Shown: positions 6,196-34,504 of the stretch, piece by piece
Position numbering within the stretch: the stretch's first letter is position 1
Layout: each line of letters opens with the position of its first letter
IMG/VR virus record: IMGVR_UViG_3300044546_001066
Coordinates: 1 to 34,698 of that record
Direction: 5' to 3' (one strand)
DNA from: a virus
DNA: 34,698 nucleotides
Position numbers and translations under genes: made by a program
The notes under the pieces: generated by a model
Databases searched by the model: none
Told to the model about the DNA's origin: nothing
Seen by the model: the letters and a program-made list of their open reading frames with translations, nothing else

Positions 6196-6741
6196 TTACT
6201 GAGTGTTTTCAAATTCATAGTATGTATATGCAAAAGTAACACGTGACGTTAAAGGAGATGCATCAGTTGAAGTTGATGTAAAGTCAATGCCAGAAAGATT
6301 TGTTGGAAAACAATCTACAAAACGCACTTGAACCAGCGGCTGATATGCATTGTCTAATATTGAAAGCGTACCGTCTGTATATCCTGATGCAAGTTCACTA
6401 GCAGAGTTATTATTTTTTGTACTGCTCATTAATTTTTTATACAGTTCATGATTTGTTGGATAGCCCAGTCCAATTATCCAATCATGAATAGCACGATAAT
6501 TTTCAAGTTTAGAGTCAATTTGAAATGTACAAGTTAATTCTCCATATTCCATTGTTTCTCCAGGAATAGGAATGTCATGCACAGTACTTGTTTGAATCAC
6601 TGTTCCAAGACTAATAGATGGCAACGAAACTTCTTGAACAAAAAAAGTAATTTCTGGAAATTTAACCAGCGAAAAAACATAATTACCACTACCAATAAGT
6701 GGAGTAATTGTAGTAGGCGAAGGACATGTTAAAACTGCCAT
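6196..6741 (-). CDS. 3: Tail tube terminator / tail completion protein gp3
   Basis: 181 residues (T4 gp3 has 176). gp3 caps the tail tube at the neck end and fixes tail length together with gp15. The sequence follows the gp3 layout as I recall it: V-S-L-P-S-I, then I-P-I-P-G-E-T-M-E-Y-G, a strand (CTFQIDSKLENY), I-H-D-W-I-I-G-L-G-Y-P, then a C-terminal hairpin ending V-T-F-A-Y-T-Y-Y-E-F-E. The tail tube protein gp19 and hub-associated tube proteins share a related fold, so a tube paralogue is the alternative. The position between 23 and uvsY is where cyanophage-type genomes carry gene 3. A weak GGAA lies about a dozen bases upstream of the ATG. Confidence 0.75.
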   Translation of the reverse strand: MAVLTCPSPTTITPLIGSGNYVFSLVKFPEITFFVQEVSLPSISLGTVIQTSTVHDIPIPGETMEYGELTCTFQIDSKLENYRAIHDWIIGLGYPTNHELYKKLMSSTKNNNSASELASGYTDGTLSILDNAYQPLVQVRFVDCFPTNLSGIDFTSTSTDASPLTSRVTFAYTYYEFENTQ

Positions 6742-6756
6742 ATAATAAATTCCATA

Positions 6757-7221
6757 TTAGTTTTTACGACGATATTCCCATGGAGCTGTAGGTGTAGTTT
6801 CAGCCCACAATCCACGATGCTCAATACGCGCTGCTTCTTGTAGTTTAAACAGCGGAGATTTTTTAGGAGCATAATCAGTATAGACCCATGCAGCTCCTAA
6901 TTCAACTTGACGAGCATTAATACTCTTGTTATCCACAAAAATTTCACAAAGTTTTCGACCATACATGTCCTTTTTAGCATCACAATGCAGAACTATACTT
7001 TTACCGGCTATAGATTTTTCAAGTAAAGATTTTGATTTTGTGCCAAAACGTTGATTCAGTTCTGGAGCATCAATATGTCGCAGTCTGATTTTTTCTGTGC
7101 CATTAAATGTTTTTACAGTTAAAGTATCACCATCTATAACTTTTATATCAGACATTAGAGTTGATGCAGCCATACTTGAAATGCAAAAAGTTAATATGCA
7201 GCACATTAATGCAGTTTTCAT
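6757..7221 (-). CDS. Exported staphylococcal-nuclease-family thermonuclease
   Basis: 154 residues. The N-terminus (MKTALMCCILTFCISSMAAS) is a short basic start, a hydrophobic core and a small-residue end, i.e. a Sec signal peptide with cleavage near residue 19 or 20. The mature part has the SNase active-site set by position: D30 in I-D-G-D-T, R46 in R-L-R-H-I-D-A-P-E, D51, E54, and R89 in Y-G-R-K. SNases are Ca2+-dependent phosphodiesterases that cut DNA and RNA; this one should act in the periplasm or outside the cell. AAAAGGAC precedes the ATG, and a TAAATA element lies 21 bases upstream. It sits in an accessory insert between gp23 and gp3. Possible roles, all inferred, are degrading competing DNA, nucleotide scavenging, or host DNA release. 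Confidence 0.9.
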   Translation of the reverse strand: MKTALMCCILTFCISSMAASTLMSDIKVIDGDTLTVKTFNGTEKIRLRHIDAPELNQRFGTKSKSLLEKSIAGKSIVLHCDAKKDMYGRKLCEIFVDNKSINARQVELGAAWVYTDYAPKKSPLFKLQEAARIEHRGLWAETTPTAPWEYRRKN

Positions 7222-7302
7222 AATTGTCCTTTTAAAGAACTTATTTACGTAGTTAAAATAAAAGCCAAATCGGTTAGTCTAGTTGTAAAAACACTTGACT
7301 GT

Positions 7303-7462
7303 TCTTGCTACTTTCATTATACGTTCTTATCAATGTTATATAATCACTTTTGTATATTACATTGTAGTATTTTTGACTGTTATTAATATTATTTGGTAAT
7401 TAATAATATTTGGACAAAGCTTCGCTAATTAAAGCTAAAGAGCTTTATTGAAAGTAGCAAGA
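7303..7462. repeat. 160-bp structured non-coding element bounded by 14-bp inverted repeats
   Basis: TCTTGCTACTTTCA at 7303-7316 is the exact reverse complement of 7449-7462. Inside are a stem-loop TTATTAAT/ATTAATAA (7380-7387 with 7399-7406, 11-nt loop) and a second hairpin AAAGCT-AAAG-AGCTTT at 7431-7446. The left arm and start of the loop hold TAATATTAT. The element fills most of the gap between the HUH-type gene and the nuclease and contains no ORF of note. It could be a cis substrate (origin-like site) of the HUH protein, a structured RNA, or the remains of an inserted element. Sequence alone does not decide. Confidence 0.65.
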
Positions 7463-7485
7463 GCCAAACGAGGGCAGTAATGCTG

Positions 7486-8010
7486 TTAAGTCAAAGACCA
7501 AAGCACATTGTCTGTGTCTTTAGTCCCCAACTCTTTTGTTATGTACTCAATCCATCCGCTATCAGCAATGTCAACTGCGTGTTCAGCGTCTATGCTTTCA
7601 ACATTTAACTTTGCCTTTGTAACAAGCGCATCAAACTGATTAAACTTAACATGACTTGGTAAGCCGCCAATAGCAAAGTGAAGATGTAAGTTTTTATTAC
7701 TTCGTTCGCCTTCAACTACAGGCAAATACTTTAATGATTTGCCACCTTTTTCTGCAGCGTACTTACCAAACACTTCTCTGTTCAGTTTCTGCATAAAGCG
7801 TTTAGCAATGCGTTCACAATCAAATTGTTTTAGCTTACGCTTGTATGTACCTTTGTCTGTAGTTTCTACAATAGTCTGTTTCAAAGTTAGTGTTAAAGCC
7901 AACTGAAAATCATTGCTTTTACCAATTAACCATGTGCGCGTTGCCGACTTTTGTGTAGGTACAGCAAGTGGGTCATATGCTGTGCGATCGCGAATTTCTT
8001 GTAGATTCAT
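7486..8010 (-). CDS. Small HUH endonuclease / rolling-circle Rep-like protein
   Basis: 174 residues with the three motifs of HUH replication initiators in the right order: motif I L-A-L-T-L-T (residues 37-42), motif II L-H-L-H-F (H109 and H111, metal binding), and motif III W-I-E-Y-I-T-K (Y156 nucleophile, K159). A basic helix lies between motifs I and II. Such enzymes nick single-stranded DNA and stay linked through the tyrosine. No helicase domain follows; the protein ends 15 residues after K159, so it is a minimal nuclease domain or a truncated Rep. There is no Shine-Dalgarno; AATAAATA ends eight bases before the ATG. It is isolated from gp23 by a terminator. T4 superfamily phages do not need a Rep, so it is probably accessory or mobile. 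IS200-type transposases lack the L-T-L-T and Y-x-x-K motifs and fit less well. Confidence 0.65.
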   Translation of the reverse strand: MNLQEIRDRTAYDPLAVPTQKSATRTWLIGKSNDFQLALTLTLKQTIVETTDKGTYKRKLKQFDCERIAKRFMQKLNREVFGKYAAEKGGKSLKYLPVVEGERSNKNLHLHFAIGGLPSHVKFNQFDALVTKAKLNVESIDAEHAVDIADSGWIEYITKELGTKDTDNVLWSLT

Positions 8011-8069
8011 ATATGTGTATTTATTCTAGCACGAACGTACGACAAATATTTTATCAATCAGAAATAACA

Positions 8070-8089
8070 AAACCCGCCGAAGCGGGTTT
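8070..8089 (-). terminator. Rho-independent terminator after the major capsid gene
   Basis: AAACCCGC/GCGGGTTT, an 8-bp perfect stem with a four-base loop (TTCG on the minus strand), followed on the minus strand by a T-rich tract (TTTTGTTATTT). It lies 65 bases after the gp23 stop and before the HUH-type gene. A short T run on the other side could also let it work on the plus strand. Confidence 0.9.
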
Positions 8090-8153: not shown

Positions 8154-9401
8154 CTACAAAAGATTCTGTACCTTGATTTTGCGGAAGTAGGAATTCTGAC
8201 CAGAAGCCAAGCTAGTGAACGGATTAGAAACAAAACCGTAGCGGGTTTTGAAAGCCAGCTTGGGTTGGAAAGTTTCTGGATCAGTTGCACGATACAGTTG
8301 CAGGGGAACGTATGGGCAGTAGAAAGCACCTGCGTCGAAACGACTAGTACCTTTATAACCAACCATCAAGAATTGATCTGCAGTTTGGTTAGCAGCGAAG
8401 GGATCAACATACACTTTATAGCGACCATTCAGTACACCAGCAAAGGTAGAAGAAGCTTCGTCAACTTTCAAGTCGGTGCTCAAACCAGGAGCATAATCTA
8501 ACACACCAGCCATTGCCAAAGCAGAGGCTACGTCTGCAGAGCAAACGATAAAGTTGCCTTTACCGCGACGGGTAGTTTGATAGATTGCATTGGCTTCGCG
8601 CTCGATTTGATACATCAAGCCTTTAAACTTCTCAACAGACCAACGACCGTTAGAGTCAACGTCCAAGTCGAAAGTACCAGCAGTAGCAGTACCAACTTGA
8701 GCACCAACTTTAGCAGAGTTGTAGATTGTGCGGATTACTTCACGATTGATTTCGTTAGTGATCTCTTGAGAAAGAATGTTAGACAATTCAGCTTCAGCAT
8801 CCAAACCATGAACTGCTTTCAAATCTTGTGCAAGTTCGATAGAGTATTCGGCTTTCAGCGCGCGGGTTTGAGCAACAACGCTGGTCTTCTCAATAGAGAA
8901 TGCCATTTGGTTAAACGCAGCACCGTTTTTAGAACCCATTGCTTCGGCTTCAGAAGTAGAAACAGGGGTACCAGAAGTAGAACCGTCTGCACCAGGAGAA
9001 CCTGCGTGAGCACCTTTACCAGAGAATGCTGTATCAGCTTCGTTGAACAGTGCTTCAGGACCGTTCTGCGAACCGTACTTGCTCTTCATTGCAAAGATCA
9101 GACCGGTAGGTTGGGTCATTGGCTGTACACCACACATGTCATATGCAATCATTGCTGGAACAGCGCGACGTACCAAGGAGATCAGCACGGGGTCAAACTT
9201 AGCAACACCGCCGGTATCGGGCATTACACCAGCAGAATTGGTTGGAGCGTCTTCAAACAGTGCAGCACGTTCTTCACGCAGTGCACGTTCTTGGTTTTCC
9301 AACAGGACAGCTGTGTCCATTTTGCGTTGTTCATCAGCAATTTTGGGCATAGAAGTTGCTTCTAGGATGGGGGCCCATTTTTTTACGAGTTCTTTAGACA
9401 T
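8154..9401 (-). CDS. 23: Major capsid protein gp23
   Basis: 415 residues. The HK97-fold capsid subunit shows T4 gp23 signatures: L-V-x-K-W-x-P-I-L-E near the N-terminus, V-R-R-A-(V/I)-P with C-G-V-Q-P-M, the central A-(E)-Y-S-I-E-L-A-Q-D-L-(K/R)-A-V-H-G, and G-Y-K-G-T with P-Y-V-P-L near the end. It is about 100 residues shorter than T4 gp23 (521), consistent with lacking much of T4's surface insertion. In T4, gp21 removes the N-terminal 65 residues. The equivalent site here is probably LFE|D after residue 50, with Asp in place of the usual Ala/Gly/Ser. AAAAAGGA precedes the ATG. The gene closes the head operon, ahead of the terminator at 8070. Confidence 0.97.
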   Translation of the reverse strand: MSKELVKKWAPILEATSMPKIADEQRKMDTAVLLENQERALREERAALFEDAPTNSAGVMPDTGGVAKFDPVLISLVRRAVPAMIAYDMCGVQPMTQPTGLIFAMKSKYGSQNGPEALFNEADTAFSGKGAHAGSPGADGSTSGTPVSTSEAEAMGSKNGAAFNQMAFSIEKTSVVAQTRALKAEYSIELAQDLKAVHGLDAEAELSNILSQEITNEINREVIRTIYNSAKVGAQVGTATAGTFDLDVDSNGRWSVEKFKGLMYQIEREANAIYQTTRRGKGNFIVCSADVASALAMAGVLDYAPGLSTDLKVDEASSTFAGVLNGRYKVYVDPFAANQTADQFLMVGYKGTSRFDAGAFYCPYVPLQLYRATDPETFQPKLAFKTRYGFVSNPFTSLASGQNSYFRKIKVQNLL

Positions 9402-23850: not shown

Positions 23851-25650
23851 TTATCTCACTTGAGAAAAAACAAATTCTGATCCACCAGAAGATACACCAG
23901 ATGCAATGTTATCAATAATTGAAGATACATTAATATTATCATCTTTTATTGTAAGAATAATATTTCGGCTTGACGCAACATCATTACTTCTTGGCGTGAA
24001 CACAAATTCTAATAGAATGTCGTGCATTGTTGTTATTTTTAAAACTGGAATGTCCCAAGATCCAGTTTGATAATCAATAGTACCAACATCACGTAAGTAA
24101 AAAGGTAATCCTCTTTCATCTTCATAATACAGTTCAAGAATTCCATCACCATTATCTTTAACGTAAGAACGACTTGGATGTTCTTCTGTGTAAAATCTGG
24201 TAGAATAAAACGTTCCCGGTGTAATTGGGTTATCAAGATTTACTGAGTAACGAGAATATACATCTAGTTTTGCTTGCTTTGGAACACGAACCCGTAGCGC
24301 AATACTGTTGCTTGTTATAGCTTCGTCTACACCGTCTATTAGTCCAGACAATTTACTATATCTAAAAACACTGTCGAATTTGTTAAGTGATTTTGAAAAT
24401 TCTCGTATTTTATTCTTTACCATCGTTTGAAGTTGACCATTTAAGTATCTTGTTCTATTATCATTGTAGTATACATTACAAAAAAGTTCAATACACATAT
24501 AATCTGGATCAACGATTTCAGGCGTAACTGATATTACACCACATTTTAATTTTAAGAATTTTATAATTTCAGATTTTTCTGCATCTGTAAATTTGAGCGC
24601 ATTATACGGTTTTGCACTTATAAAAACTTTACCATAATATTTTGGTATATTATCCTGACCACCCCATACATGAATAGATTCTATTCGTGGAAAATTTGCT
24701 TGTAGAACTGTTTCGTAATCTGAAACAGTCACTGCTCTATTTTGACTTACCCATGCGCGTGGTGCGTTGTATTTTATAGAATCAATTGATTCTTCTTCTA
24801 CTCCACCATAGCCACTACGAATGGTGAATACTTCGACACCAACGTCATCACGATCTAAGCCAGACTGATATGTAAATGCATTTGAACCGTTTGCTTCTTG
24901 ACCTGAAGATTTTATATACGAAACTTCAATTATATTACCTATTTCAACTGACGCACCAATAGAGTTATTTCCAAAATATATTTCAAAAAGTCCGTCATCA
25001 CGCTGCTTAATAAAGTATACTTTATCACTTCCTTTAATACGCATCAAATCACCAGCGATTGAAAATTTTTCAAATCCTATTGACGTTGCTGATTGTTTTA
25101 CTTTAACTAAAATAGTAGACGTATCAATTCCGCTGTTTGGAATTACAAATTTATTGTCCGTATTTGTAACAGTGAACGAATTAGATAACATCGTTCCTTC
25201 TATAATTTCTACATCGTTAAAAATAAATTTTCTGTCTTTTATTTTTGTAAAATAATCGTTATTAGTATAAAAAATAAAAGAATTATCTCCAAACGCTCCA
25301 TTAAACGCTGTTCCTTTTGGAATAAGAAAAGAAGTGTCTGATGCTGATGCTGGAAGAGTACATTCAACACTGACATAAGCACGAGCACTTCGTTTTGACG
25401 ATGCAACATATCCAAGAGACTTTGCAAGACTTATTACACTGCTGCGCTTTGACGCTGAATCCAAGAAAGATTCATTGACTGCCATATTAGTATACAGTGC
25501 ATTGTATTGTGTATTGTATGCAAGGACATCTAGTAATACTGACAGTGCAGAGCCATCGAATTCATATGATTCAAACTCTTGTTGTGATTGTAAAAATGAT
25601 TTTAAATTATTCTTAATTGAATCAAAGTCTAATTCGTCAAAATTTTTCAT
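23851..25650 (-). CDS. 6: Baseplate wedge protein gp6
   Basis: 599 residues (T4 gp6 has 660). Forms the continuous inner ring of the baseplate wedges. The gp6/J-like signature is clear: F-D-G-S-A-L-S-V-L-L-D-V-L-A-Y-N-T-Q-Y-N, A-V-N-E-S-F-L-D-S-A-S-K-R-S-S-V, and R-A-W-V-S-Q-N-R-A-V-T-V-S-D-Y near 310, then V-W-G-G-Q-D. Its ATG overlaps the gp25 stop (ATGA), with AGAAAGAA upstream, so the two wedge proteins are translationally coupled. Confidence 0.93.
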   Translation of the reverse strand: MKNFDELDFDSIKNNLKSFLQSQQEFESYEFDGSALSVLLDVLAYNTQYNALYTNMAVNESFLDSASKRSSVISLAKSLGYVASSKRSARAYVSVECTLPASASDTSFLIPKGTAFNGAFGDNSFIFYTNNDYFTKIKDRKFIFNDVEIIEGTMLSNSFTVTNTDNKFVIPNSGIDTSTILVKVKQSATSIGFEKFSIAGDLMRIKGSDKVYFIKQRDDGLFEIYFGNNSIGASVEIGNIIEVSYIKSSGQEANGSNAFTYQSGLDRDDVGVEVFTIRSGYGGVEEESIDSIKYNAPRAWVSQNRAVTVSDYETVLQANFPRIESIHVWGGQDNIPKYYGKVFISAKPYNALKFTDAEKSEIIKFLKLKCGVISVTPEIVDPDYMCIELFCNVYYNDNRTRYLNGQLQTMVKNKIREFSKSLNKFDSVFRYSKLSGLIDGVDEAITSNSIALRVRVPKQAKLDVYSRYSVNLDNPITPGTFYSTRFYTEEHPSRSYVKDNGDGILELYYEDERGLPFYLRDVGTIDYQTGSWDIPVLKITTMHDILLEFVFTPRSNDVASSRNIILTIKDDNINVSSIIDNIASGVSSGGSEFVFSQVR

Positions 25651-26039
25651 CTTGTTCTTTCTAACGTTATAGACACATCAAGTGGCTTTTCACTATTTTT
25701 TATAGTAAACTGGATTAGTACATCCAGCGTATGTTGGTTTCTATTTTCTCGTATAATAACGTCGTCTACACGAACGCGCGGTTCAAAATTCGTGATGACA
25801 TCTACAATAGACTGACGCAGAATAATATTCGTCATATCATCAAAATTTTCAAACAACATTTTTTTAATAGGAGTACCTATTTCAGAATGAAACAACCTCT
25901 CGTAATTTTGTGTCAGCACAAGACTTTTTACTGCAAATTTAATTGCCCTTTCGCCAGTTTTTATTGACACATCACCAGTGTTTGGATTTGCGTCAAAAAT
26001 CGCATCAAGATCAGTAAAAAGTCTGTTTTGTTTATTCAT
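25647..26039 (-). CDS. 25: Baseplate wedge protein gp25
   Basis: 130 residues (T4 gp25 has 132). Lysozyme-like-fold wedge protein that nucleates sheath assembly. Features are L-F-T-D-L-D-A-I-F, T-G-D-V-S-I-K, A-V-K-S-L-V-L-T, G-T-P-I-K-K-M-L-F-E-N, and I-x-N-F-E-P-R-V-R-V-D-D-V near residue 90. I start at the ATG at 26039; a GTG at 26054 would add five residues that fit no gp25. Neither start has a good ribosome site, and a strong terminator ends only about 18 bases upstream. Confidence 0.92.
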   Translation of the reverse strand: MNKQNRLFTDLDAIFDANPNTGDVSIKTGERAIKFAVKSLVLTQNYERLFHSEIGTPIKKMLFENFDDMTNIILRQSIVDVITNFEPRVRVDDVIIRENRNQHTLDVLIQFTIKNSEKPLDVSITLERTR

Positions 26040-26057
26040 AGCATTATTTAACACAAA

Positions 26058-26102: not shown

Positions 26103-29100
26103 TTAGAATTGCAACACAAAAGAAGCTGGAGATGTAATATCAGGCAAGTTTGAAACTTTCACTTCAACAAGACCATTTACAACAGATTCAACTGATGCTG
26201 TTATTGGAGCATTTGTTAATGGAAATAAACCAGCATCGCCACTAATAAAGTATACTGCATCTGCAGCTGTTCTAAAATTAGCTGTTTGATTTACCACCAA
26301 TCGATCGATAACGACATCAGAACTGCTGGAAACAATCTTATTGCCATCTACGAGTTTAACACCAACACTGTATGCTCCAAGAGTACCAGCGACTTCACCC
26401 GAATCTTCTACCACTACATCAAAAGTATCTGCAGTTTTTGCTACAATCAAACAAGATTTAGATGCAACATTCGTATTTTTGACGTTTACACGATCACCAA
26501 CGTCAAGACCATGACCAACTTTAGTGCATGTTAAAGTTGTACCAGTTCTTGCCCAAGCAATGTTTGTATAAACAACAGACGAAGAAGTCACCCAGATAGT
26601 TTCATTGCTACCATCTGCAGAAATTTTATAACGCGTTTTTGTATTAAACACATCAGATGCAATAACAGTATCGCCTTGTGGACCGGCTGGACCCTGCACA
26701 CCTTGCGGACCACGGATTGGGCCTAAGTTAATCCAAGTATTGCCATCCCATACGTGTCCATCATTAGTGTCTGTTACAATATATACGTGTCCAAGCATCG
26801 ACGACTCAGGCAATTCAAATACAGCAGAAACAGAACCTTTGATTGAAATGCCTGAACCAACATCACCTTTAGGACCTACGTCACCCTGAAGACCTGCTGG
26901 ACCTACATCGCCTTTTTCTCCTTGAGGACCTTGTTCGCCTTGGATACCCTGTTGACCAGTTGCTCCAACATCACCTTTAGGACCTACATCGCCTTGATCA
27001 CCTTTAGGACCTTGTTCGCCTTGGATACCCTGTTGACCAGTTGCTCCAACATCACCTTTAGGACCTACATCGCCTTGATCACCTTTAGGACCCTGAATAC
27101 CCTGTTGACCAGTTGCTCCAACGTCACCTACTGGACCTTGAATACCCTGTGGACCTTGAGGACCAACATCACCACGAGGACCTTGAAGACCTGCTGGACC
27201 AGTTGCTCCAACATCACCTTTAGGACCTACGTCACCTTGATCACCTTTGGGACCCTGAATACCTTGAGCGCCTGACAAGTCGTTCATATATTCATATGAA
27301 CTACCATTCCACAAGTACAATTTTGAATTGTCTACGTGATTTGAATTCGAAGTTTGAATAAGAGCAAACTCACCTGGCATAATATCCATTGGCGAATCGG
27401 TTTGCAATGCGGTTAGACTAGAATATATTTTAGCAATTTTGAATCCAAAACCAGCAATACCTTGTACGCCACGAGGACCAACATCACCTTTGTCACCCTT
27501 AGGACCAACTGGACCTACTAGACCCTGCGGACCTACATCACCACGCAGACCCATTTCACCTTGAATGCCCTGTGGACCAATTGGACCTCGTGCACCCTGT
27601 GGACCAGTATCGCCTTGTTGACCCTGTAAACCAGCTGGTCCTTGATCACCTCTTGGACCAACGTCGCCTTTGTCACCCTTAGGACCAACGTCGCCTTTGT
27701 CACCCTTAGGACCCATTGGACCAACGTCACCGCGGGGACCTACCTGACCCGTATCGCCTTGAGGACCAGCAGCACCAACATCACCTTTAGGACCTTGAAT
27801 CCCTTGAGGACCAGCAGCACCAACATCACCTTTGCTACCAGCTACGCCAGCATCGCCTTTGTCACCTTTAGGACCCTGAATACCCTGTTCACCTCTTGGA
27901 CCTACCTGACCCGCGTCACCTTGTGGACCAGCGACACCGTCATCACCTTTAGGACCTTGAATACCTTGTTCACCACGGGGACCTTGTTGACCGGAATCGC
28001 CTTGAGGACCTTGAAAGCCTTGTTCTCCACGCGGACCTTGCGCACCCGCGTCACCTTTAGGTCCTTGATCGCCTTTGTCACCTTTAGGACCCATTGCGCC
28101 AGTATCACCCTTTGGACCAACTGATCCTTGTTCTCCTTTAGGACCCTGAATACCTTGATCGCCGCGTGGACCAACTGGACCAGTATCTCCTTGAATGCCT
28201 TGAAGCCCTTGATCACCTTTTGGACCGACTGGACCAGTTTCTCCTTGAGGACCACGTTCACCATCATCTCCTTTTTGACCCATAGGACCAACGTCGCCTT
28301 TAATACCCTGAGGACCTTGTACACCGGTTGCGCCAGTAGTACCTTGTTCACCCTGGAAACCTTGCGGACCTCGTGCACCTTGAACACCTTGAGCGCCGCG
28401 TGGACCCGACGGACCGCTGATTTTTGCGATAAAGGTATACACTGTTCCAGTAAAGACAAACAATTTTGCATTGTCTGGATCGTCAATAGTATTGCTATTG
28501 ATAATTGCAAATTCGCCGTCTTTGATATTCATGGGTTGAATATCAGATTCTAGTTCTGCTAAACTAACGTACGTACGTTTAATCTTGAAACTAGCACCTT
28601 CAATGCCGCGCTCTCCGCGCATAGCCATCATATCCCAATAATCAATATTAGTTGGAATTTGATCTGAACATTCAACAGTACAAATAAACGAATGACCATT
28701 ATAACGGACACAATCATTTACAGAATAGAATGTGTTTGGAGTGTATAAACCTTTCCACACTATTGCCAGTCCGGTTTCACCTTGAATTCCTTGAGGACCC
28801 TCAATACCTTGAATGCCCTGAATACCTTGCAATCCTTGAGGACCTTGTTCACCTTGAGGACCTTGTTCACCTTGAATACCTTGAATACCTTGAAGTCCAG
28901 TTGGTCCAATTGGACCAGGATCGCCTTGTTCACCACGATCACCCTTAGGACCCATAGGACCGCCATGAGGACCCATAGGACCAGGATCGCCTTTTGGTCC
29001 GCGCAAACCTTGTGGACCCTCTGATCCACGCAGTCCAGGAAAACCCTGAGGTCCTTCTGGACCCATGGGCCCGCGCGGACCAACTGGACCTACATCTCCT

Positions 29101-29186
29101 TTTGGTCCTGGAAGGCCCTGTGGGCCCATCTGTCCTTCAATACCTGGATCGCCCTTGGGTCCTTGAGGTCCGACTAAATCTGCCAT
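26103..29186 (-). CDS. Collagen-like tail fibre with inserted beta modules
   Basis: 1027 residues. Gly-X-Y rods are interrupted by four kinds of module: W-K-G ... [11 protein letters not shown] at about 141-190, resembling small carbohydrate-binding modules; an F-K-I-K-R ... G-E-F-A-I-I module at 200-260, repeated as F-K-I-A-K ... G-E-F-A-L-I at about 577-637; the K-G-S-V ... W-D-G-N-T-W module at 779-825; and a non-collagenous C-terminal domain from about 842. The last is Val/Thr-rich with [13 protein letters not shown], a fold-on or tip candidate. A 27-residue rod unit repeats in tandem at 26930-27100. AGGAG precedes the ATG. It is probably a side or long fibre that binds the host surface. 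Confidence 0.88.
26936..27097 (-). repeat. 81-bp tandem repeat in the collagen-like fibre gene
   Basis: Two nearly identical 81-bp units (starting at 26936 and 27017) and a partial third encode the 27-residue, nine-triplet block [20 protein letters not shown] plus QGIQGEQ. High base identity points to recent duplication. Confidence 0.85.
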
Positions 29187-30875: not shown

Positions 30876-32726
30876 TCATTGTTTATTATTTTTTAGAGCA
30901 TCGATTTCGCTCTTTAGATTTTTGATTTCGTTACTCAGTTCTTGTATTGCATTGACCAAAATTGGCAATAAATGCGAATCCACCATTTTGAGTTTTTCTG
31001 GAGCTTCTGTATCTACTACAACGGGTTTGTCACCCTCAATTGCTAAAATATCCTGTGCGCCAAAACCATATTTAACTGGTCCGTGCGGTGTTGTTGAATC
31101 TCGTGTTTCGCGGAAACGATATTGAATTGGTTTAAGTTGGTTAACAAATTCAAGCCCATGCGGTACAGGACCGGACACAACTTTATCACGCAAATCAGAA
31201 ACAACAGTCCATGCGACCGCAATATATGCATTTGTTACGCCTGTGTGTGCAATAGACACTCTGTTGTTTTCTGTTGTACAATTATATGCAGGTGCATAAA
31301 CGCCGGATTGATTATACTGAGTACCTAATGCGGTATTGTTTGAACCAGTTGTATTAGAGTTCAGCGCGCCATTTCCGATCGACGTATTGTTTGAACCAGT
31401 TGTATTATTACCAAGTGATGACATTCCAACAGTAGTATTTGCCATGCCGGTCGTATTGTTTATAAGTGTCCACCAACCAATCGCAGTATTACTATCACCA
31501 TTAGTACTGTTCAGCAGAGCTCCAACACCAACAGCAGTATTAAATGCGCCAGTTGTATTTGCATTTAACGCTGCTTTTCCTACTGCGGTATTGTCTGATC
31601 CAGTAGTATTGCTTATAAGTGTCCACCAACCTACTGCTGTATTGTAATTTCCTGAAGTATTAGAGTTCAGCGCGCCATCACCGACCGCTGTATTGTTTGA
31701 ACCAGTTGTATTATTACCAAGAGATACTAAACCAACGGCTGTATTCATCGACCCTGTAGTGTTATTGATAAGTGACCAATAACCAGCTGCGGTGTTATTA
31801 TAACCGGTTGTATTATTAAGAAGAGCACCTACACCAAAAGCAGAATTAGCTGATCCACTAATATTTTTACCCATCGCACCATGTCCAACAGCAGTATTAT
31901 TTCCACCGGTAGTATTATCGCGAAGCGCTCCGTGACCTAGAGCAGTATTATAACTACTTACGTTTTTTTGCAGAGAATATGCGCCAACAGAAGTATTAAA
32001 AGCTCCATTAATATTAGTCTCTTGCGCTTTATGACCAACTGCTGTATTTTCGTCAGAATCAACATTTTGTCCAGCGCCAAATCCAATAACAATATTTCGT
32101 TTACCTTTTGTCGTGCTCTTTAGCGAATTAACATTATCAACATTGATATTTTCAGTTAGTTTGTCTACGATTAAATTGCTATTTCCACCTCCGGCTCCGG
32201 TTTGAGGGCAAAAGTCTACCCAACCAGTACCGCTCCAAATAAAACCACGATCTTCAATAGAAGAATCGTACCATAGCTGACCTATGCTAGGATTAATTGG
32301 TGGATTATCTCCAATAAAAACTACTGAATTAGTTACAGCAGTTATTTCAGAAGTTCTTACAGACGTAACTAACCCTTTAGAGTTAACCGTTATAATAGGA
32401 ATTCTTTCTCCAGAACCAAATTGACCAACATTTGGATTAACTTGATTTAGTGTTAAATCTCCTTTAACGTCGTTTTTTCCGTTAAAATAAACAGACCAAG
32501 CTCCGTCTCCCTCAATCTGAATTTTTCTATCTAACGGAGTTGTATTTTTTTCTATGACAACAACTTTCTGTTCAATGTTTCCAACAATATTTTTTAATTG
32601 TGCTGTATCATTGTCCAACGATTTAAAGTTTGCATCAATTTCAGAATGCGTAAGAGGAGAATTTTTAACGTATGTTGCGCCTGGAATGACAGGACTAGAA
32701 TTTACACGATATGTTATATTTGCCAT
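30876..32726 (-). CDS. Repeat fibre with S74 intramolecular chaperone
   Basis: 616 residues. An N-terminal virion-binding and linker region (1-200) includes a small G-Q-L-W-Y-D ... W-S-G-T-G-W module. About 15 units of 17 residues (N-T-A-V-G-x-x-A-L-x-x-N-T-T-G-x-x) follow at about 212-470, resembling the trimeric left-handed helix of YadA-type adhesin heads. The C-terminal 110 residues are a peptidase S74 chaperone: S-D-L-R-D-K-V near 507, G-L-E-F-V-N-Q-L-K-P, Y-G-F-G-A-Q-D, and a coiled-coil end (N-A-I-Q-E-L-S-N-E-I). The S-D pair at its start is the expected self-cleavage point. It is a trimeric receptor-binding fibre by family. Confidence 0.9.
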   Translation of the reverse strand: MANITYRVNSSPVIPGATYVKNSPLTHSEIDANFKSLDNDTAQLKNIVGNIEQKVVVIEKNTTPLDRKIQIEGDGAWSVYFNGKNDVKGDLTLNQVNPNVGQFGSGERIPIITVNSKGLVTSVRTSEITAVTNSVVFIGDNPPINPSIGQLWYDSSIEDRGFIWSGTGWVDFCPQTGAGGGNSNLIVDKLTENINVDNVNSLKSTTKGKRNIVIGFGAGQNVDSDENTAVGHKAQETNINGAFNTSVGAYSLQKNVSSYNTALGHGALRDNTTGGNNTAVGHGAMGKNISGSANSAFGVGALLNNTTGYNNTAAGYWSLINNTTGSMNTAVGLVSLGNNTTGSNNTAVGDGALNSNTSGNYNTAVGWWTLISNTTGSDNTAVGKAALNANTTGAFNTAVGVGALLNSTNGDSNTAIGWWTLINNTTGMANTTVGMSSLGNNTTGSNNTSIGNGALNSNTTGSNNTALGTQYNQSGVYAPAYNCTTENNRVSIAHTGVTNAYIAVAWTVVSDLRDKVVSGPVPHGLEFVNQLKPIQYRFRETRDSTTPHGPVKYGFGAQDILAIEGDKPVVVDTEAPEKLKMVDSHLLPILVNAIQELSNEIKNLKSEIDALKNNKQ

Positions 32727-32731
32727 ATTGA

Positions 32732-32938
32732 TTAATCCAGGTTAACAGATTTAAATGGCTCTAAATCTTCGTCTGTCCAAAATTTTTGTTCAAGAAGTTT
32801 TTTAATGTACTGTTTATTTCCATTCATTAAAAAATCCCAGTCAGTTTGACCAATATATTCAGGTTTTTCCATCTGAATAACTTTAATGGATTCTAATCCA
32901 TCTTCATAATAGTTTTGTATTAATTCTTTTGTTAACAT
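32732..32938 (-). CDS. Small protein related to the 71-aa protein across the radical SAM gene
   Basis: 68 residues. The C-terminal half (N-K-Q-Y-I-K-K-L-L-E-Q-K-F-W-T-D-E-D-L-E-P-F) aligns without gaps to the 71-aa protein at 34289-34504 (N-K-Q-H-V-E-I-M-L-K-R-D-Y-W-T-T-E-D-L-D-P-F); the N-terminal halves differ. It lies four bases after the radical SAM stop and five before the S74 fibre, with no clear ribosome site. It could be a fibre-assembly accessory protein, or a substrate or partner of the enzyme. No known motif was recognised. Confidence 0.65.
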   Translation of the reverse strand: MLTKELIQNYYEDGLESIKVIQMEKPEYIGQTDWDFLMNGNKQYIKKLLEQKFWTDEDLEPFKSVNLD

Positions 32939-32942
32939 ATAA

Positions 32943-34289
32943 TTAGATTAATTCAGTTTTAACTGGTACTGGAAATGGTTTTTTAATTTTTAAACCTTCA
33001 CCAAATATATTTTTTCTATCTTCTGGAATATTAACACCTTCTAAACGGAATGGTTTAAAACCACCCGAAAAATAAGTAATAATATACGACAGCAGTGCTA
33101 TATTATCGTCATAACTTGTATCACAAGATTTGGAATATTTATCACCAGTCAAGAACATGCAACTTCCCTGACACAGTTGTAATACAGGACAATCACTACA
33201 CAATTTTCTAGTCGACCAGTGATGCGCTGTATTTAATTTAGCATTTTCTATATCGTCGAGCGTTCCAATTATATGCGACGTGCCAGATTCAGTTGTAGAT
33301 TTTGCTGAAACATTTTGACACGTTAATAAATTTCCATTAAGATCTACTGCTATTGAACCAGGTAAATCCATTCCGCATTTTTGAGATAGCGAGTCAGATG
33401 TTATTCCATATGAAATTGAAAATACAAATTTTAAGAATTTTTGATTTAAGTTTGTATAATTTTGAAGTATGTTTTTGCTCAGATCAGTATACAATTTGTT
33501 TCGAACATAAAAGTGATCCTTTTCTTCAACTAGCAGGCTGAATCCGTCTTCGTCATACGCATCAATGAAGCCACCTTCACCAATTGGAACAGATTCATTA
33601 TTTGTTATAGTCTTAAACCAATCAAGTGTTTTGGCTCTGTCAAAAGAATTTTTATGCATCATTGCATTAAGACTAATTTTACCGTGCAGCTGAAGACGAT
33701 TAAACAACTCTAAAATAAATGGATTTGACTCTAATGGATCTGTTCCCCTAAAAGCTTGACCGGGACCGTCATGACTAATACCAATTTCGAATTGATTTTC
33801 TACCAACCAATCATTTATTTCTTGATTTAATAGTGATCCATTTGTTACTATTGAAAATTCAGCAAAACCGTAAATTAATTTTAATTTCTCAGCAAGTGGT
33901 TGTAGAGTTTTCCAGTATACTAAAGGTTCGCCACCCCAAAATTCAAACTTTACACGCGCATTTTTATCTAGAACTCGTTCTATTTTTTTAACAAAGTCAT
34001 CAACGTCATTTTTATTGGTGGATTCCGCACGCGGGACGTACTTTTGACTACAATAATCACATGAGTAATTGCAATTAAGACCAAGCTGAATTTTTATTAA
34101 TTTTAAATCTCGCGATTTTTTTCCAGGATTGTCTGGATGAACCTGCTCGGCTTTTGGTAATTTAAAATCAGCACTTTTTAGTGGTATTAAACTTTTTCCA
34201 AACTCGTCTACAAGTGTAGATTTGTGTTGATCGTAAAAAAAAGTTTTAAAAATTCCTTGATTGTTTTTAGTGCTGATTTTAATAGTCAT
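32943..34289 (-). CDS. Radical SAM enzyme with SPASM domain (peptide-maturase type)
   Basis: 448 residues. L-N-C-N-Y-S-C-D-Y-C at 71-80 is the CxxxCxxC site for the SAM-binding 4Fe-4S cluster. G-G-E-P at 119-122 and I-V-T-N-G at 147-151 follow as in the family. The C-terminal cysteines C305, C324, C364, C367, C373, C377 and C389 have SPASM spacing (C...G-N-x-x-x-C, C-x-x-C-x-x-x-x-x-C-x-x-x-C...C), which binds auxiliary 4Fe-4S clusters. Members include sulfatase-maturing enzymes and RiPP maturases acting on peptide or protein side chains. Its ATG overlaps the stop of the 71-aa gene (TAATG), so it is translationally coupled. The substrate is unknown; candidates are the flanking small proteins or fibre proteins. 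Confidence 0.92.
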   Translation of the reverse strand: MTIKISTKNNQGIFKTFFYDQHKSTLVDEFGKSLIPLKSADFKLPKAEQVHPDNPGKKSRDLKLIKIQLGLNCNYSCDYCSQKYVPRAESTNKNDVDDFVKKIERVLDKNARVKFEFWGGEPLVYWKTLQPLAEKLKLIYGFAEFSIVTNGSLLNQEINDWLVENQFEIGISHDGPGQAFRGTDPLESNPFILELFNRLQLHGKISLNAMMHKNSFDRAKTLDWFKTITNNESVPIGEGGFIDAYDEDGFSLLVEEKDHFYVRNKLYTDLSKNILQNYTNLNQKFLKFVFSISYGITSDSLSQKCGMDLPGSIAVDLNGNLLTCQNVSAKSTTESGTSHIIGTLDDIENAKLNTAHHWSTRKLCSDCPVLQLCQGSCMFLTGDKYSKSCDTSYDDNIALLSYIITYFSGGFKPFRLEGVNIPEDRKNIFGEGLKIKKPFPVPVKTELI

Positions 34290-34504
34290 TACAAAATTGC
34301 TGTTCTAAAAGGATCCAGATCCTCAGTTGTCCAATAATCACGTTTCAACATAATTTCAACGTGCTGCTTGTTTCTATTTAACGTGTCAGTTTCTTCTTTT
34401 GTCAAGCTTTCTTTAGCTTTGAGTTTATTAATCAATTCAACACTGTGAAGCGTTGACTCGTATTGTTGTTTGATTTCTTCAGCAGTGTATTCAATTTTAT
34501 ACAT
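34289..34504 (-). CDS. Small protein coupled to the radical SAM gene
   Basis: 71 residues, charged, mostly helical by appearance. It shares its C-terminal W-T-x-E-D-L-(D/E)-P-F and the preceding helix with the 68-aa protein on the other side of the radical SAM gene. It has no cysteine. AAGGAAA lies before the ATG, and the stop overlaps the enzyme's start (TAATG). It could be a precursor peptide, an enzyme partner, or a virion accessory protein. I do not recognise a named family with confidence. Confidence 0.65.
   Translation of the reverse strand: MYKIEYTAEEIKQQYESTLHSVELINKLKAKESLTKEETDTLNRNKQHVEIMLKRDYWTTEDLDPFRTAIL

Follow-up and report, generated by a model that had tools for sequence, protein, structure and literature searches.

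The stretch of viral DNA analysed here (the window, all 34,698 nucleotides of IMG/VR record IMGVR_UViG_3300044546_001066) carries an intact Rep-like gene in the midst of genes typical of a T4-like phage (Table 1). On the plus strand the same interval is interrupted by stop codons. In the direction of reading the order is gp23, terminator, Rep, a gene for a protein that resembles staphylococcal nuclease (PF00565), a tail-tube-like gene (phrog_45), uvsY and uvsW. A reading made from the sequence only had already placed a terminator between gp23 and the open reading frame, and a terminator-like hairpin was found there. It had also stated that gene 3 comes right after gene 23 in related genomes; this was wrong for the relatives, in which a second tail-tube-like gene (phrog_45) is followed by uvsY and uvsW. 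At the sensitivity applied, IMG/VR yielded no relative of the nuclease-like protein. Replication in T4-type phages proceeds by recombination, and we know of no HUH Rep in any of them.

Table 1. Features at the rep locus and their positions in the window.
Feature	Positions	Strand	Remarks
Tail-tube-like gene (phrog_45)	6196..6741	minus	downstream border of the insertion hotspot
Staphylococcal-nuclease-like protein (PF00565)	6757..7221	minus	second gene of the insert
17-nt inverted repeat	7303..7462		arms 7303-7319 and 7446-7462, 94%; closes a larger fold
Noncoding element	7404..7485	minus	directly 3' of the Rep stop; common to chromosomal homologues; candidate nick site or origin
Rep-like open reading frame, 174 aa, intact	7486..8010	minus	single-Tyr HUH endonuclease-like; H109/H111 on a strand, Y156/K159 on a helix
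AATAAATA, T4-type late-promoter-like octamer	8018..8025	minus	ends 7 nt before the ATG
Intrinsic terminator-like hairpin (both strands)	8070..8089	minus	after gp23; parts gp23 from Rep
gp23, major capsid protein	8154..9401	minus	upstream border of the insertion hotspot

Elsewhere in the window, a long protein of collagen-like GXY repeats (26103-29186) and a fibre-like protein with TAVGxGAL repeats (30876-32726) are probably tail fibres, and positions 1-2330 of the minus strand are seemingly filled by collagen-like coding sequence. A Radical SAM domain protein (phrog_1802; 32943-34289) lies in the structural cluster between two small genes that are similar to one another (32732-32938 and 34289-34504), and the three resemble a peptide-modifying set.

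The protein has the motifs of a Rep in the order that the sequence-only reading had described: L39-T-L-T-L43, H109-L-H111 and Y156-I-T-K159. Among the 137 open segments of at least 60 amino acids in the window, this is the only one in which H-x-H is followed by YxxK 35-60 residues on, and the pattern arose in 42 of 20,000 shuffles (0.2%) of the protein's own composition. H109, Y156 and K159 do not vary among the 12 homologues, E100 and W153 are also invariant in the alignment, and the LTLT strand is conserved or nearly so in homologues that range from 86 down to approximately 18-39% identity. Conservation of H109, H111 and Y156 had been put forward as a check on the assignment; H109 and Y156 are kept throughout, and H111 is histidine in nine of the 12, being replaced by asparagine in L163, L173 and L174. 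These three form a subgroup of Reps with an HxN variant of the HUH motif in the same gene module. In comparisons of the phage and chromosomal copies dN/dS was 0.065-0.10, indicating purifying selection.

Sequence databases have little to say about this family. The window protein found no match in Pfam, NCBIfam, PDB sequences or the phage and plasmid collections, and its only direct match was to phrog_3584, 'replication initiation protein', at E=0.011. Its homologue L086 matched PF23343 (REP_ORF2-G2P) at E=0.0039 over positions 3-98 of 99; the scores of L086 (17.9 bits) and of L161 (15.6 bits) fall below the curated cut-off of 27.8, and the window protein itself gave no match. None of the GIY-YIG, HNH, LAGLIDADG or Vsr/EDxHD nuclease domains was found in it with Pfam and NCBIfam and, in agreement with the earlier statement that this short protein lacks a helicase domain, none was matched in the domain searches.

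An AlphaFold model built with a six-sequence alignment is of medium confidence (pLDDT 72.8, pTM 0.71); a single-sequence model (pLDDT 37) was discarded. Strands at 35-43, 46-51, 54-59, 94-99, 108-115 and 140-148 and helices at 62-81, 123-134 and 151-160 give the order of an HUH fold that a structure prediction had been expected to return, with strand 108-115 carrying H109 and H111 and helix 151-160 carrying Y156. In a library of viral models the replication initiators of microviruses were matched with probability 1.00 and a best E of 3.8e-5; the 17 viral fold matches at E<=0.001 include the 'Replication initiator protein' of Microvirus mar14 and an ORF2/G2P-domain protein. Comparison with PDB folds placed the AAV2 Rep domain (OBD) first (Z 8.1 over 117 residues), with ribosomal S6 following at Z 7.8. 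Because unrelated ferredoxin-like folds follow so closely, the PDB ranking alone is not decisive for HUH. When motif conservation, the order of secondary structure elements, the microvirus/G2P and AAV Rep matches and the weak PF23343 match of L086 are taken together, the protein is very likely the HUH Rep-like nuclease that was first suspected. That the resemblance is due to chance, or that this is a decayed gene with no HUH activity, is highly improbable: the lack of a Pfam or NCBIfam family and the marginal phrog_3584 match speak for it, and the conserved motifs, the HUH-like model and the low dN/dS speak against it.

We take the protein to be a minimal replication initiator of the HUH class and the microvirus/G2P (ORF2/G2P) type, predicted to nick DNA in a strand-specific manner. 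The microvirus initiators and PF23343 share its HUH strand order, HxH and YxxK, and provide its best viral fold matches and the weak profile match. They differ from it in that the window Rep has 174 amino acids, no added domain and a score below the Pfam cut-off, and in that its family occurs in a T4-like phage and in chromosomal elements, while the microvirus initiators belong to a small ssDNA virus.

The DNA behind the gene is also conserved. Similarity between the window and locus L082 extends from 8052 to 7404, so the rep gene moved with some 80 nt of the DNA that follows it. Of the first 71 nt past the stop codon 65 are identical to L082, while synonymous divergence (dS) is about 1; this element of approximately 80 nt is therefore conserved above the level of synonymous sites. 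Parts of it are retained beyond the near clade in L085, L086 and L161, and it is not recognisable in the more distant L170-L174. It contains a conserved hairpin (GCA...GCC/GGC...TGC) and matched no known RNA in Rfam. The wider region 7222-7485 had been called structured, and its folding z-scores of -3.75 and -4.67 bear this out; the 7303-7319 arm of the inverted repeat falls outside the region common to the chromosomal copies. We propose, by inference from its conservation and position, that the 3' element is a candidate nick site or origin. It occurs once in the window, and no second strong copy was detected in the five host genomes searched; multicopy transposition of the IS200/RAYT type was rejected on the ground that each of these genomes has one strong copy. 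The Y1 enzymes IS200/IS605 TnpA and RAYT resemble the window Rep as single-tyrosine HUH proteins found near hairpins, with weak fold matches to 2xm3 and 4er8, but the Rep differs from them in its single strong 3' element per genome, its conserved partner genes and its association with tyrosine recombinases.

Relatives of the protein were sought by scanning genome contigs and then by profile searches. The scan identified relatives at 86, 83, 77, 56 and 39% amino acid identity in Limnohabitans and other proteobacterial/Burkholderiales genomes, and the profile searches contributed another six copies, spread over five genomes from that family or order. The close relatives (77-86%) belong to integrative elements in the chromosomes of Limnohabitans and other Burkholderiales, not to phages: viral-contig scans and the phage and plasmid collections contained no second phage or viral copy, leaving a single phage record. 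Viral loci picked out by pattern matching (L088-L150) were set aside since profiles revealed no true relative among them, the few weak matches spanning only the GWIxYIxKE motif. A tree built to infer the direction of transfer between phage and elements favoured neither direction.

The elements have a conserved module composed of DUF6641 on the opposite strand, Rep, noncoding DNA and a short (approximately 190 aa) tyrosine recombinase, often accompanied by a larger integrase and a small MRIxEI-type protein. No relative of the short recombinase was found in IMG/VR. DUF6641 was not found in the window or the phage collection, with controls silent in one of these searches; its first alignment was too diverse for scanning, and phrog_31551 does match it. 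A role for the MRIxEI protein in targeting T4 capsids was considered and dropped, as no homologue was detected among T4-like loci or phages. The Limnohabitans 2KL-17 element begins at the 3' end of guaA, is bounded by 16-bp direct repeats (ATTGAGTGGGAGTGAC) 11.8 kb apart and carries type I restriction-modification genes, which also adjoin the L187 copy. L164 has a tyrosine integrase and 16-bp att repeats and, with no terminase or capsid genes seen among the ORFs of the element, no full structural set, which is the combination taken to mark a satellite. No packaging or capsid-hijacking genes were recognised in the elements, so the satellite label draws mostly on promoters, size and cargo. Near guaA in L087 (5410-6048) an integrase is fused in frame to a 15-residue fragment of Rep, apparently a remnant of an element after deletion. 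The earlier suggestion of a satellite-derived gene thus stands in outline, its closest relatives lying in integrative elements of bacterial chromosomes that have integrases, att repeats and genes for defence, and these elements look like satellites of T4-type phages or islands triggered by phage.

The position of the gene in the phage is informative too. In relatives whose gp23 is at least 72% identical, the gp23/tail-tube junction varies from approximately 0.1 to 6.4 kb and often holds GIY-YIG or Vsr/MTES_1575-like homing-type nuclease genes, several of the matches being below curated cut-offs. These genes place Rep in a homing-nuclease hotspot; Rep itself was present at none of the 80 gp23 loci. 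The homing-type role once suggested for it is upheld as regards position only. The free-standing homing endonucleases of T4-type phages (GIY-YIG Seg-like and Vsr/EDxHD-like) that occupy this slot beside gp23 have an unrelated fold, and the predicted chemistry of Rep is single-strand nicking. At this junction many relatives (L004, L010, L013, L016-L019, L023, L027 and L029) have a protein of approximately 125-207 amino acids with two HxT-type motifs (HCTLIYS...HVTLRY), which presumably resembles 2H phosphoesterases such as T4 Acb1.

A further link to T4-type phages is found upstream of the rep genes. TAAATA, the core of the T4 late promoter, lies within 21 nt of the start in all 12, a count in which L168-L171 and L173 were given an alignment-guided ATG other than the ORF finder's first start, chosen after the motif was seen, and in which the closely related Limnohabitans-type L164-L166 amount to nearly one. 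The gap to the ATG is 5 nt in nine, 4 nt in one, 7 nt in the window and 21 nt in one. The motif thus stands 4-7 nt before the ATG in 11 of the 12, against 0.06 expected from shuffles, and at such spacing it was absent from all 110 ATG ORFs of a sample of host DNA. It is the most enriched hexamer (16-fold) ahead of genes at those T4-like loci that are related to the window and is found 5 nt before many tail-tube genes of T4-like phages; several elements also have it in front of their small MRIxEI gene. T4 late promoters have been published as NATAAATA/TATAAATA (PMC2984593, PMC1524935) with the consensus at -13 to -6 (PMC1524935), so a gap of 5 nt puts the transcription start (+1) on the A of the ATG. 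The promoter motif suggests that Rep is probably transcribed late, with almost no leader. Some element promoters have a context resembling an extended -10 (TTTGGTTnTG upstream), from which host sigma-70 could also produce leaderless transcripts. Beyond the rep genes, TAAATA exactly 5 nt before the ATG is seen at many genes of T4-like phages (L030-L067 and others; window 25647-26054), a spacing that suggests that late mRNAs without leaders are widespread in this group of phages.

On balance we judge it slightly more probable than otherwise that a T4-like phage has exchanged a satellite-type HUH initiator, together with its candidate origin, with Burkholderiales elements, and that it expresses the gene late. 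The rep gene and the cis element of approximately 80 nt would have travelled together, in a direction that we infer, and would have been kept in the gp23/tail-tube slot where relatives have homing-type nuclease genes. We predict that Rep uses Y156 to nick a single strand in or close to the 3' element, H109 and H111 holding a metal; the resulting 3'-OH would serve rolling-circle or recombination-dependent synthesis. In the chromosomal elements nicking would support replication following phage infection, and the phage may benefit either by interfering with matching elements or through selfish maintenance of a rep-ori cassette.

The first of these benefits has a precedent. As a refinement of the exchange reading, Rep could be an anti-satellite nuclease that, in the course of infection, attacks the origin of those chromosomal elements that match it, by analogy with ICP1 Odn and PLE; this would be a better-motivated version of the 'tool against other phages' that the sequence-only reading had imagined, and we regard it as somewhat unlikely. 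Phage genes that copy the initiator domain of a satellite are known (PMC8263062; PMC10448857), and Odn and PLE RepA resemble the present case as a phage gene matching a satellite-type initiator in a nuclease-gene setting. The phage copy here matches the initiator of the elements, is under purifying selection and lies in a homing-type nuclease hotspot. Odn, however, is a chimera of a T5orf172 nuclease and a RepA_N binding domain, while the window has a plain, complete HUH initiator with a candidate site, and possession of that site would expose the phage to self-nicking. Retention of gene and candidate site somewhat favours the selfish cassette over a role in attacking or outcompeting the elements. 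Such a cassette, an HUH gene with its target, would move between T4-like phages by nick-primed recombination in the niche of homing endonucleases, whose GIY-YIG and Vsr/MTES_1575-like genes occupy this junction in relatives, and gene and element do travel as a pair; but a single phage has it, with no phage relative in IMG/VR, and an empty-site allele with the target was not seen, making this explanation unlikely. No more probable is the proposal that the elements are ordinary integrative or mobilisable islands with host promoters, from which the phage acquired the gene by chance recombination. Their two tyrosine recombinases, att repeats and restriction-modification cargo are typical of islands and several have the extended -10-like context, but TAAATA at 5-nt spacing is absent from the 110 sampled host genes, is common in T4-like phages and recurs before the MRIxEI gene.

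A larger version of the exchange reading can be offered only tentatively. In it the elements would be a new kind of T4-type phage satellite, replicating by means of an HUH initiator whose leaderless mRNA is transcribed by the late RNA polymerase of the helper, and the phage would have captured the rep-ori module in its homing-type nuclease slot for use against, or in competition with, the satellite. The presence in one phage of an intact Rep that is kept by purifying selection, and that defence islands in chromosomes also possess, is a sign of unrecognised exchange between integrative elements and phages of the T4 type. On the islands, the late-promoter motif before the rep genes offers a direct and cheap test for satellites of T4 phages in abundant freshwater bacteria, and a new setting for the conflict between phage and satellite known from ICP1 and PLE.
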